Source of the DNA: a virus
DNA length: 23,761 nucleotides
Strand: one strand, 5' to 3'
Virus record (IMG/VR): IMGVR_UViG_3300008111_000128
Coordinates: 1-23,761 of that record
Made by a program: the position numbers and the translations under genes. This document shows, piece by piece, positions 4,503 through 15,120 of the stretch. Positions within the stretch are counted from its first letter, which is position 1. Every line of letters starts with the position of its first letter. A model generated the notes under the pieces. It saw only the letters and a program-made list of their open reading frames with translations, was not told the origin of the DNA and did not search any database.

Positions 4503-6583
4503 TGTTTGACCAAAAGATAATAAAGTCAATAAATACCGAAGAGTTTAGACGAGAAGCTATAAAGTTTGAAGAGAATAGAAAACGACACGGAGAAGGTTTT
4601 TATATAGATCCTAAACTTAAAGGTACAAAAGAATGGAAAGATTATTGGAATCTTCAGGCTTTCTATTGTATTAATGGTATGTCTGTAGGTGGAGTTAAAA
4701 TTACAGGAGAACATTACTTCTATCTTAACTTTTGTCAAATATCTTTAAAGTTAACGAAAAAGATAACTGATTTAACTACCTTAACTGAGTTAACTACCAA
4801 AAAGGTCAAAGTAGATACAACAGTTACATTTCCTGATTTCTGGGATAGTGATTGGTATTATTTTAATGAATGTAAAAGAGCTGAAGAACTTGGTTTACAT
4901 ATAATTGTATTAAAACCAAGACGTAGAGGTTACTCATATAAAAATGCAGCTAAATGTGCATGGACTTATACATTTAGTAAAACAAGAGCTAACTCATTAA
5001 TACTTGCTGAAGATAAAAAGTATTCTGAAGAAACTATGAGGATGGCTGTAAGTTATCTTGATTTTCTTAACAGACATACAGGTTTTAGTCGTCAACGTCA
5101 GCATATTAACAAACCCAGAGAAATGGTTCAGGCATCTTATGAAGAGATTACACCTGATGGTAGAAAGTTAATTGGTGGTTCTATGTCTAGGATTATGCAA
5201 TACTCTACTCTTAATAATCCAGATGTAGCCAGGGGTAAAGATGCAAAAGTAATTCTATTTGAAGAGGCTGGTTCAATGTCAAATTTAAAAGCTACTTATA
5301 CAGTAACCCGTCCTACAGTTGAATCTGGTACAGCAGTATCAGGTCAAATGTTTGTATACGGAACAGGTGGTGACTTTAGTGGTGGTATGGTTGACTTTGA
5401 AGAAATGTTTTATGACCCGGATACTTACGGGTTTTTAGCTTATGATAATATGTATGATGAAGGTGCTACTTCATCTATAGGATATTTTTTACCAGATAGT
5501 TATTCTAAGTTAGGATTTATAACTGAACAAGGAATGTCACTTCATAAAGAAGCTGAGTTTGCAATCCAAGCTGAAAGAGATCACCTTAGAAGAACTACAA
5601 AAGATATTAACATTGTAGATAAGATGATTTGTGAAAATCCTCTTAAACCTTCTGAAGCTATGTTAAAGGTAGGTACTAATATCTACCCTAAAGATGAGAT
5701 TAACAGACAGATAGCTAAGATAAAAGGTAACTCTGCATTACATAATCTTGGAACTCCAGGAGTATTTGTACAAGAAGAATCAGGTGTTAAGTGGCATCCG
5801 TCAACAGACGTTAAACCTATTTTACATTTTCCATATAAAGCTGATGTTGATGGTGAAGGTTGTGTTATTATGTATCAACCACCTTATAAATTTGGTAATA
5901 CAGTACCTCCGGATTTATATTATATTGCTACTGACCCTTTTGCAATGGACAAAGATAAATCTAAAGAATTAACTAAAAGAGATTCGTTAGGTGCAGCTTA
6001 TGTAATGAAGAGAGTTAACTCATTTTCAAAGCCTTATGATATAATTGTGGCGGAATATGTAGCCAGACCTAATTTTCAGGATGATTTTAACAGACAGTTG
6101 TTTATGATGGCTGAGTATTATAATGCTAAGATTGTATTTGAGAATGATAGGGGTAATATAATAGAATATGCTAGGAATAATAAACTTCTTTACAGACTTG
6201 AAGAAGAGTTAACTGTTTATGACTCAAGCAATAACCCTAGAAGAAAGTTAGGTAGAAGTTATGGTGTATCTATGTCTAATATTGAAGTTAAGAAACAAGC
6301 TGTACAATATTTTAGGGATTGGTTATTAGCTCCAAGAGATAGAAATGAAGATGGAACTCAAGAATTGAACTTACATAAGATTTATTCCATACCTTTGTTG
6401 GAAGAAATACTAAAGTTTAGTTATGAAGGTAACTTTGATAGACACTCTGCAATGTTAGTGGCTATGTTATATAAGAAAGAGTTAGTTATGAAACCACTTC
6501 CTGAAACAAATGAAGGTAATTCAGAAGTAGGGGAGTTTTTTTATCGTTTAAAAACTAAAGTTGGTTTAAAGCAAACTTTATAA
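4502..6583 (+). CDS. terL: terminase large subunit (packaging ATPase/nuclease)
   Basis: TerL pumps DNA into the prohead through the portal and cuts the concatemer. The 693-residue protein shows an arginine-rich Walker A-like loop LKPRRRGYSYK (residues 137-147) and a Walker B strand with catalytic acids VILFEEAGSM (250-259). A C-terminal RNase H-like nuclease has ATDPF (D478), a second acidic cluster FENDRG (E548/D550) and a third around FDRHSAM (D646). The length is typical of crAss-like and other long TerL proteins. It is coupled to the upstream gene by TAATG and followed 22 nt later by the portal gene, the usual order. No inteins or breaks are seen. Confidence 0.93.
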   Translation: MFDQKIIKSINTEEFRREAIKFEENRKRHGEGFYIDPKLKGTKEWKDYWNLQAFYCINGMSVGGVKITGEHYFYLNFCQISLKLTKKITDLTTLTELTTKKVKVDTTVTFPDFWDSDWYYFNECKRAEELGLHIIVLKPRRRGYSYKNAAKCAWTYTFSKTRANSLILAEDKKYSEETMRMAVSYLDFLNRHTGFSRQRQHINKPREMVQASYEEITPDGRKLIGGSMSRIMQYSTLNNPDVARGKDAKVILFEEAGSMSNLKATYTVTRPTVESGTAVSGQMFVYGTGGDFSGGMVDFEEMFYDPDTYGFLAYDNMYDEGATSSIGYFLPDSYSKLGFITEQGMSLHKEAEFAIQAERDHLRRTTKDINIVDKMICENPLKPSEAMLKVGTNIYPKDEINRQIAKIKGNSALHNLGTPGVFVQEESGVKWHPSTDVKPILHFPYKADVDGEGCVIMYQPPYKFGNTVPPDLYYIATDPFAMDKDKSKELTKRDSLGAAYVMKRVNSFSKPYDIIVAEYVARPNFQDDFNRQLFMMAEYYNAKIVFENDRGNIIEYARNNKLLYRLEEELTVYDSSNNPRRKLGRSYGVSMSNIEVKKQAVQYFRDWLLAPRDRNEDGTQELNLHKIYSIPLLEEILKFSYEGNFDRHSAMLVAMLYKKELVMKPLPETNEGNSEVGEFFYRLKTKVGLKQTL

Positions 6584-10181: not shown

Positions 10182-11612
10182 ATGGCAAGAATTATCACAA
10201 GTCAAACATGGAATGAACAAATGGTATCTAACGATGCTTCGTTAGCTAAAGCCCTTTTGCTTCAACCTGAAAAAATCACTCCTGTTCTTACTTACCTGAT
10301 GGGTAACGAAGATAGCAGGTTTCCTCTTCACTATTTATCAGAAGGTATGCGTTCAACCGTAGAAATCGAAGGTGACGAATACGAATATGATATTGTAGGA
10401 AGATTATTTAAAGCTGTTCCTCTAGCAGCTGCAACTACAACTGTTAATGCTGGTATTGGTTTCTCAGAATTTGTTCTGAAATTCCAAGAAGGTATTTTCC
10501 CTGAAAAGTACACCATCCTTTCTCCTAAAGGTTACCAATTGGTAATTACTAGTCGTAGACAAGCTGCTGGTTACTGGGAATATACAGTTAAAATTGCTGG
10601 TGCTAAATCAACTTCTGAGTTTATCCCTGCAAGTGAATTACAAGCTGGTGCTCTTTATGCATTAGGTTGGTATGCTGCTGCAAGCTTTGGTTCAAGAGGT
10701 TCTGAGTCAACAACTACATCTCCTTACAAAGTTCGTGGTGACGTATCTACTATTCGTAAATCTTACAAATGGGAAGGTAACGTAAAATACCGTTCAGCTA
10801 AAGGTATCGAATTAGGTACTAAAGGTGGAGGTACTAAACAACTTTGGTGGTCATTTGAAGAATGGCAACACAACTTGTCATTCCGTAGGGAATGTGAAAC
10901 CAATTTCTGGTATTCAAAATCTAACCGTGACCAATTTGGTCAAATCTCTGAAAGAGATGAGGAAGGTAACATGATTATCCGTGGTTCTGGTTTGTTGGAG
11001 CAAATTATCAATAAAGATACTTACTCTGAACTTACTGCTGAGAAATTGAAGCAAACCATTCGTGATACTTTCTTTGGTATGTCAGATGCTGAAAACAAAC
11101 AAATCACTCTTTTCACTGGAACAGGTGGACGTGATGCATTTGACCAAGCTATGAAAGCTGAATTGCTAGGTGCTGGTTATATCAAACTTAGTGACAGACA
11201 TTTCGTAACAGGTGGTGGTTACAACTTGAAGTTAGGTGGATACTTTGATACCTATCAACACGTTGATGGTTATACCATTAACATCGTAACTAACCGTCTG
11301 TATGATGATGGACCTGCTGCTAAAGGTTTGTTCCATCCAAAAACAGGTCTTCCTTTGGAATCATATCGTATGACTTTCGTTGATACTTCAGTATATGACG
11401 GTCAGTCTAACCTGATTATGATTACCAAAAAAGGACGTGCTATGGTTCGTGGTATGGTAAAAGGTATGAATGAAGTAAGTCAAAACTTGTCAGGTAATGA
11501 TGTAATTTCAACTGACAAAGATGCTAGCTCATTGCATATGTTAAAAACAGGTCAAGTTGTTCTACGTAGGTTCAATACTTCTATTGACCTTCGTTGTGTG
11601 GCTGGTCTGTAA
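10182..11612 (+). CDS. major capsid protein
   Basis: The 476-residue protein follows terL, portal and scaffold in the standard order and has a size fitting an HK97-fold capsid subunit of crAss-like phages. Its codon use differs from its neighbours: more C-ending codons (ATC, AAC, TTC) and CGT for arginine, as expected for the most abundant virion protein. The sequence is a soluble alpha/beta mixture, with a long central beta-rich part and a late segment (HMLKTGQVVLRRFNTSIDLR, near the end) typical of a capsid C terminus. A GC-rich hairpin and a tRNA-like element follow the stop. An A-rich leader shared with the 13745 gene precedes it. Confidence 0.85.
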   Translation: MARIITSQTWNEQMVSNDASLAKALLLQPEKITPVLTYLMGNEDSRFPLHYLSEGMRSTVEIEGDEYEYDIVGRLFKAVPLAAATTTVNAGIGFSEFVLKFQEGIFPEKYTILSPKGYQLVITSRRQAAGYWEYTVKIAGAKSTSEFIPASELQAGALYALGWYAAASFGSRGSESTTTSPYKVRGDVSTIRKSYKWEGNVKYRSAKGIELGTKGGGTKQLWWSFEEWQHNLSFRRECETNFWYSKSNRDQFGQISERDEEGNMIIRGSGLLEQIINKDTYSELTAEKLKQTIRDTFFGMSDAENKQITLFTGTGGRDAFDQAMKAELLGAGYIKLSDRHFVTGGGYNLKLGGYFDTYQHVDGYTINIVTNRLYDDGPAAKGLFHPKTGLPLESYRMTFVDTSVYDGQSNLIMITKKGRAMVRGMVKGMNEVSQNLSGNDVISTDKDASSLHMLKTGQVVLRRFNTSIDLRCVAGL

Positions 11613-11620
11613 ACCAAATA

Positions 11621-11646
11621 AAGTAGGGGGCTAAAATCCCCTACTT
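11621..11646 (+). terminator. GC-rich hairpin after the capsid gene
   Basis: AAGTAGGGG (11621-11629) pairs perfectly with CCCCTACTT (11638-11646) around an 8-nt loop. There is no T tract, so it may cause partial termination or protect the 3' end of the capsid mRNA. The tRNA-like cloverleaf starts 4 nt later. Confidence 0.6.
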
Positions 11647-11649
11647 AAC

Positions 11650-11717
11650 TATAGTGTAGCTCAAGTAGAGCCCTAGATTGTACTAGGAGGTTGTGGGATC
11701 GTACCCCATCACTATAG
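11650..11717 (+). tRNA. tRNA-like cloverleaf with shortened loops (anticodon unclear, UGU-Thr possible)
   Basis: All four helices form. The acceptor stem 650-656/710-716 has 7 perfect pairs (offsets from 11000). It is followed by T-A at positions 8-9. The D stem GCTC/GAGC is 659-662/668-671, the anticodon stem CCTAG/CTAGG 672-676/683-687, the variable loop AGGTT 688-692, and the T stem GTGGG/CCCAT 693-697/705-709 with one G-U. G717 is the discriminator. The loops are abnormal: the D loop has 5 nt (AAGTA), nucleotide 26 is missing, the anticodon loop has 6 nt (ATTGTA), and the T loop is ATCGTAC, with the usual T54 and A58 exchanged. CCA is not fully encoded (CAA). If T678 is U33 the anticodon is UGU (Thr); if T679, GUA (Tyr). 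It is either a reduced tRNA or a tRNA mimic. Confidence 0.6.
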
Positions 11718-11731
11718 CAAATTTTAAGAAT

Positions 11732-15034: not shown

Positions 15035-15059
15035 TTGGTTGTCTGATTCAATTATAAAA

Positions 15060-15096
15060 CAAATGGGGAGTCGAAAGATTCCCCTTTGTTATTTTT
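15060..15096 (+). terminator. strong intrinsic terminator with GAAA tetraloop
   Basis: The stem pairs CAAA with TTTG and GGGGAGTC (15065-15072) with GATTCCCC (15077-15084), with one bulged T and one G-U pair, closed by a GAAA loop (15073-15076). TTATTTTT follows (15089-15096). This is a textbook rho-independent terminator ending the head/structural transcript. Confidence 0.85.
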
Positions 15097-15115
15097 AACC
15101 TTTTTATTAATTTTG
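15085..15115 (+). promoter_or_regulatory. Bacteroidota-type promoter upstream of the 15121 gene
   Basis: TTTG at 15085-15088, a 19-nt spacer and TAATTTTG at 15108-15115 match the full Bacteroidota consensus and spacing. The -33 box lies inside the 3' arm of the preceding terminator. The ATG is 5 nt after the -7 box, so the mRNA would be leaderless or nearly so. It would start transcription of the fibre genes. Confidence 0.65.
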
Positions 15116-15120
15116 CTAGC

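Follow-up and report, generated by a model that had tools for sequence, protein, structure and literature searches.

What does a tRNA-shaped sequence do between the major capsid protein gene and the next structural gene of a phage? The locus lies in an IMG/VR viral record (IMGVR_UViG_3300008111_000128), which we analyzed as a single window of 23,761 nt. A first-pass annotation made from the letters alone had described a cloverleaf with intact stems and shrunken loops, and had proposed either a tRNA mimic serving as a processing site or a reduced functional tRNA reading UGU-Thr or GUA-Tyr.

The cloverleaf behind the capsid gene

The capsid protein carries the Crass_capsid domain of Crassvirales, and its closest named relatives are ~30% identical. 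The features of the gene border, all on the + strand, are as follows.

10182..11612, +: major capsid protein gene (Crass_capsid, PF23898, Pfam E=3.8e-70; PHROG major head protein)
11621..11646, +: GC-rich hairpin AAGTAGGGG...CCCCTACTT without a T-run (-14.2 kcal/mol, z -3.5), proposed 3' end protector of the capsid mRNA
11647..11649, +: 3-nt spacer; the putative RNase P cut would fall at 11649/11650, or at 11648/11649 if C11649-G11717 pairs
11650..11717, +: type A tRNA-like cloverleaf, from acceptor to discriminator G (Rfam tRNA 35 bits, ARAGORN tRNA-???, fold)
11650-11656 / 11710-11716, +: acceptor stem TATAGTG / CACTATA, 7 bp
11657-11658, +: T8-A9
11659-11662 / 11668-11671, +: D stem GCTC / GAGC, 4 bp, loop AAGTA (5 nt)
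11672-11676 / 11683-11687, +: anticodon stem CCTAG / CTAGG, 5 bp, loop ATTGTA (6 nt)
11693-11697 / 11705-11709, +: T stem GTGGG / CCCAT, 5 bp including one G-U, loop ATCGTAC
11718..11720, +: CAA where CCA would stand, the commonest 3' context of sampled phage tRNAs
11732..12619, +: next structural-module gene, 295 aa, no family match; start codon 14 nt past G73

Every part of the cloverleaf described in the first-pass annotation was located: all four helices (7, 4, 5 and 5 bp), the single G-U pair, T8-A9, and a variable loop of 5 nt (AGGTT). The reduced loops were likewise as described, with base 26 absent, and the discriminator G73 is 11717. The upstream hairpin is also present, although the gap between it and the element is 3 nt and not 4 nt. 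The element has neither a 7-nt anticodon loop with U33 nor the G18-G19 of the D loop and the U54-A58 pair of the T loop. C11649 and G11717 are able to form an eighth acceptor pair.

ARAGORN, one of the programs that the annotation had suggested, returned tRNA-???, and a local Rfam search over 241 nt scored it at 35.0 bits against the tRNA family (RF00005; E=5.1e-6), above the gathering threshold of 29, with the four-armed 7/4/5/5-bp cloverleaf of that family; it is unlisted in the default whole-window Rfam scan, where it was filtered out. Its minimum free energy structure is the cloverleaf (-21.7 kcal/mol, z -2.4), and a cloverleaf descriptor gave it 51.5, compared with at most 41.5 across 100 shuffles of the window. 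An assembly error can be set aside, since three more IMG/VR contigs (L001-L003) carry the identical sequence.

The GC-rich hairpin at the capsid end resembles that of an intrinsic terminator, but the tail that follows it (TTAACTAT) is not a T-run. Elsewhere in the same operon (window 15035-15120), a hairpin with a T-rich tail follows a 429-aa gene, an ordinary terminator-like border.

A slot filled by interchangeable bodies

Relatives were gathered by IMG/VR capsid searches and by a search with the next gene. Those with capsids 77-100% identical to that of the window form a crAss-like clade that is monophyletic in the capsid tree (support 95/98). A tRNA or tRNA-like element fills the slot in 22/22 clade contigs extending beyond the capsid stop codon (the window, L001-L004, L006-L019, L023, L041, and L043; the L004 contig ends 38 nt into the element). 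Five kinds of body occupy it.

Type A, non-canonical: the window and L001-L004
Type B, non-canonical: L006-L010, L012, L013, and L023
Type C, non-canonical, with the acceptor and T arm of standard form and the middle expanded: L041
tRNA-Met(CAT), canonical: L011 and L015-L019
tRNA-Trp(CCA), canonical: L014 and L043

The type B and L041 elements fall below the reporting level of the Rfam tRNA scan and were for that reason recognized by position and arms rather than by score. Canonical tRNA-Met and tRNA-Trp stand in the same slot as type A, which may itself derive from a tRNA gene, although no one tRNA was identified as its source. The order of the module is constant: hairpin, 3-5 nt in all clade members, body, CAA (rarely CCA, as in L023, or CAT), a short A/T-rich leader, and the start codon. 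The hairpin is present in all relatives, its arms changed yet still pairing (AAGTAGGGG, AAGGTAGGG, AAGGGAGG, AAAGTAGGAG), and across the clade its tail begins with 2-3 T residues. As judged by sequence comparison, a hairpin and a tRNA-shaped body separate the capsid gene from its downstream neighbor across the whole clade, and the bodies are freely replaced. Counted by hand, the element changed type at least seven times on the capsid tree, with zero empty slots. In four longer clade records (G001, 83.8 kb; G003; G005; G006), no tRNA-like descriptor match outscores that of the slot element (a tie in G001); ARAGORN and Rfam found no other tRNA in these four, and a search of the clade's longer records for further copies of the module gave none apart from the end of a tmRNA, described below.

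The type B elements indicate which part of the body is maintained. Between L006 and L023, 54/55 positions of the acceptor, D, and T arms are identical, compared with 77/120 four-fold sites of the capsid gene (64%; Fisher p=1e-7). The anticodon arm matches at 9/19 positions in the same pair and is unalignable, although it still forms a hairpin in every sequence. The compensatory changes that the first-pass annotation had proposed to look for in the relatives' stems do occur, a few of them and from few sequences: one T-stem pair in type B changed from G-C to A-U on both sides, in a set of five type B sequences that keeps covariation counts small. Type B elements also have two acceptor-stem mismatches, and their fold stability is no better than that of shuffles (z about 0 to -1.5). 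On these comparisons, the acceptor, D, and T arms are constrained whereas the anticodon sequence is not, a pattern unlike that of a decoding tRNA or of a decaying gene.

The proposal of a reduced Thr or Tyr tRNA did not hold up. Anticodon loops of type B and the other non-canonical slot elements have 3, 6, or 7 nt and unrelated sequences, and its canonical relatives in the slot are Met or Trp; decoding of Thr or Tyr by the window element was rejected. The mimic or processing-site proposal, on the other hand, finds support in the comparative evidence of the filled slot, the swaps, the arm constraint, and the compensatory changes.

A broader alternative is that this is an ordinary phage tRNA slot, holding an initiator-like Met or a Trp tRNA for translation, in which the window copy has decayed or is drifting. 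Phages commonly carry tRNA genes, and several clade members hold a canonical tRNA-Met or tRNA-Trp with a 7-nt loop; these could still decode, which counts against the processing-mark reading. However, retention of the type B arms with a scrambled anticodon arm is the opposite of what relaxed decay or decoding would produce, the stems of the window copy are intact, no clade member has lost the slot, and exchanges among Met, Trp, and non-decoding bodies make no sense as codon supply. We regard this explanation as unlikely.

A clean exchange involves L010 (type B) and L011 (tRNA-Met). These contigs are identical at 4906/4918 positions upstream, hairpin included (99.8%), and at 807/811 positions downstream (99.5%), whereas the elements themselves, being of different kinds, match at 41/79 positions (52%). 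L041 and L043 share a different hairpin and yet differ in their bodies. Both cases would fit a DNA-level exchange hotspot, at which tRNA cassettes move by recombination or integration and the RNA has no role. A mere hotspot, however, would be expected to be often empty or to hold other cargo, while only tRNA shapes were found, and it would not explain the fixed 3-5 nt spacing or the compensatory changes in the hairpin and T stem. This makes a hotspot without an RNA function quite improbable.

A processing mark as the proposed role

Swaps in a slot that is always filled, often by a body that cannot decode, suggest that the tRNA shape serves as a cutting mark on the mRNA. We consider it likely, from these sequence comparisons, that the element mimics tRNA structure and punctuates the mRNA, serving as an interchangeable processing site. 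The hairpin and the end of the capsid gene occupy the 40 bases upstream of the element, which makes a promoter of its own unlikely. Because there is too little room for one, the late transcript would be expected to read through the hairpin, and the canonical members would have to be excised from the capsid transcript to mature. RNase P would cut just 5' to the body. The resulting capsid mRNA would end in the hairpin and a tail of 3-5 nt, which offers too little length for most 3' exonucleases; hairpins with such tails resist PNPase and RNase R. On the other side, tRNA 3' processing, by RNase Z or exonucleases, would release the downstream mRNA, which would then carry a leader of about 14-20 nt. 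The predicted outcome is a stable, separate capsid mRNA made by RNA processing, as opposed to the terminator-like hairpin of related phages.

Several features are compatible with these steps. An acceptor stem and T arm constitute a model substrate accepted by bacterial RNase P (PMC11143913), and it is this domain that the non-canonical bodies keep. The 3-nt spacer before a structured neighbor should be no bar to the enzyme, since a spacer of that length is also found in the Pro-Ser tRNA precursor of T4 (PMC11143913). Because CAA is the commonest tail among 295 ordinary tRNAs from sampled phages, the 3' side may be handled by ordinary tRNA processing. Pairing between N-1 and N73 occurs in 14/14 elements (C-G in three) and was initially a candidate special feature; it is retained as weak evidence, since 60% of the same 295 tRNAs share it.

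Two other RNA-level roles were weighed. The element could counter host defenses that cut tRNAs, as a decoy or as a replacement RNA made abundant by cotranscription with the capsid gene; a tRNA-shaped RNA with no decoding role, probably highly expressed late in infection, would suit that purpose, but such nucleases usually attack the anticodon arm, where the elements are least conserved, and the upstream hairpin would be left unexplained, so that we give this idea very little credence. A stable 3'-UTR fold that is never cut and simply blocks exonucleases or the passage of ribosomes or polymerase is highly improbable: the hairpin and the type A cloverleaf do fold stably, and hairpins alone follow the capsid genes of relatives, but a plain hairpin, already present, would suffice, and the restriction of the slot to tRNA shapes would have no explanation.

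Gene borders in other phages and known counterparts

Sister phages (L119-L125) and outgroups have a hairpin after the capsid gene and no tRNA there. In the 54%-identical outgroup, 5-8 T residues directly follow the hairpin in 5/6 cases; the capsid hairpin tails of L124 and L125 begin with 7 and 4 T residues, and in L119-L123 and L048 the T-run is broken (TTAATTTT). L124 and L125 have a hairpin without a T-run, followed by a tRNA-Met, one gene further on, and at that border L119-L123 have the hairpin only, so that they have a tRNA at neither border. The arrangement in L124 and L125 suggests that hairpin and tRNA act as a unit that can stand in for a hairpin terminator at the end of a gene. These two tRNA-Met genes (L124:3915-3988 and L125:3908-3982) are initiator-like, with a C1-A72 mismatch and an A11-U24 pair, although the G29-G31 run is incomplete. 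Absence of a T-run does not by itself require a tRNA, since the distant relatives L062, L064, L066, L091, and L100 have a hairpin and neither of the two. In L047, the capsid gene and hairpin are followed, after 4401, by an insert of several GC hairpins with no Rfam match.

No tRNA is annotated after the capsid gene in ten named Crassvirales and related phages; a nucleotide search gave no match among named phage genomes, and a capsid profile search of 84,980 genomes of bacteria and archaea yielded no relative. A scan found initiator-like tRNAs with a preceding ATAT at 78 viral loci, most of them with no adjoining hairpin. One, L205 (L205:2271-3715), is an unrelated HK97-type phage in which the capsid gene (PF05065) is followed by a GC hairpin, ATAT, tRNA-Met, and the next gene. 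In L160 (L160:746-2781, minus strand), a tRNA-Met lies between the tail sheath and tail tube genes with no hairpin. Both are isolated cases, since a distant relative of L205 (L226) and the relatives of L160 with 54-62% identical sheath proteins lack the tRNA. The hairpin and tRNA of L145/L197 were excluded because they probably represent a host attachment site; a likely integrase fragment is close to that of L145.

Plant mitochondrial t-elements (Forner 2007; PMC11658184) are the closest parallel. They are tRNA-derived, tRNA-like structures whose cleavage by RNases P and Z defines the ends of mRNAs, and they are CCA-tailed but not aminoacylated (PMC11658184); the window likewise has a tRNA-like body without a standard anticodon arm at an mRNA border. 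They share with the phage elements a tRNA-shaped non-decoding cloverleaf at the end of an mRNA; the phage elements differ in belonging to a bacterial virus, in the hairpin at fixed spacing, and in bodies that can be swapped with canonical tRNAs, and their cutting is proposed. In mitochondrial tRNA punctuation, too, mRNA borders are set by tRNAs lying between coding regions, but those tRNAs also decode and act at many sites, whereas many of the present elements cannot decode and occupy one. RNase P also processes operon mRNAs and some phage RNAs, and its non-tRNA substrates in bacteria and phages include M3 RNA and the P1/P7 C4 antisense RNA (PMC11143913, PMC4919922); these resemble our case in that RNase P acts on mRNA or phage-derived RNA, but they are single cases with no conserved cloverleaf slot behind a capsid gene. 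The mascRNA/MALAT1 element (PMC11658184) similarly has a tRNA-like body with a diverged D stem and anticodon region and is processed by RNase P and RNase Z; it belongs to a eukaryotic long noncoding RNA and is unrelated in sequence. Intrinsic terminators behind crAss-like capsid genes match the clade hairpin in place, shape, and the proposed separate capsid mRNA, but the clade hairpin lacks the T-run and is followed by a tRNA shape. In the open-access literature, to which the search was confined, no paper that we found reported tRNA punctuation after a phage capsid gene or described a conserved, interchangeable tRNA slot at that position.

If the punctuation reading is correct, it would add a bacterial-virus counterpart to mitochondrial t-elements, would offer a testable reason beyond codon supply for the single tRNA genes of phages, whose purpose has long been debated, and would suggest that the amount of capsid mRNA can be set by tRNA processing instead of by termination of transcription. 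A tentative extension, which we consider possible, is that interchangeable tRNA-shaped RNase P marks, either canonical or non-canonical, with a 3'-protecting hairpin behind the most highly expressed structural genes are a general and repeatedly evolved form of phage late-gene control. Some lone tRNA genes of phages would find an explanation in such general punctuation as well.

Other tRNA-related signals were noted in the course of the analysis. Rfam gave no tmRNA (RF00023) match in the window. The record of L023 (G001) contains a phage tmRNA (RF00023, 92 bits, E=4e-35) at L133:8189-8569, minus strand, corresponding to G001 28189-28569, which ARAGORN misses. The record of L052 has degenerate tRNA-like matches at L219:560-628 and 2777-2845 (24 and 34 bits), one of which adjoins a weak tmRNA-like match of 25 bits, below the cutoff. 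In L175, L169, and L200 (for example, L200:4694), a lone tRNA with the loop GTCATGT separates the conserved genes phrog_17745 and phrog_12247, both of unknown function.
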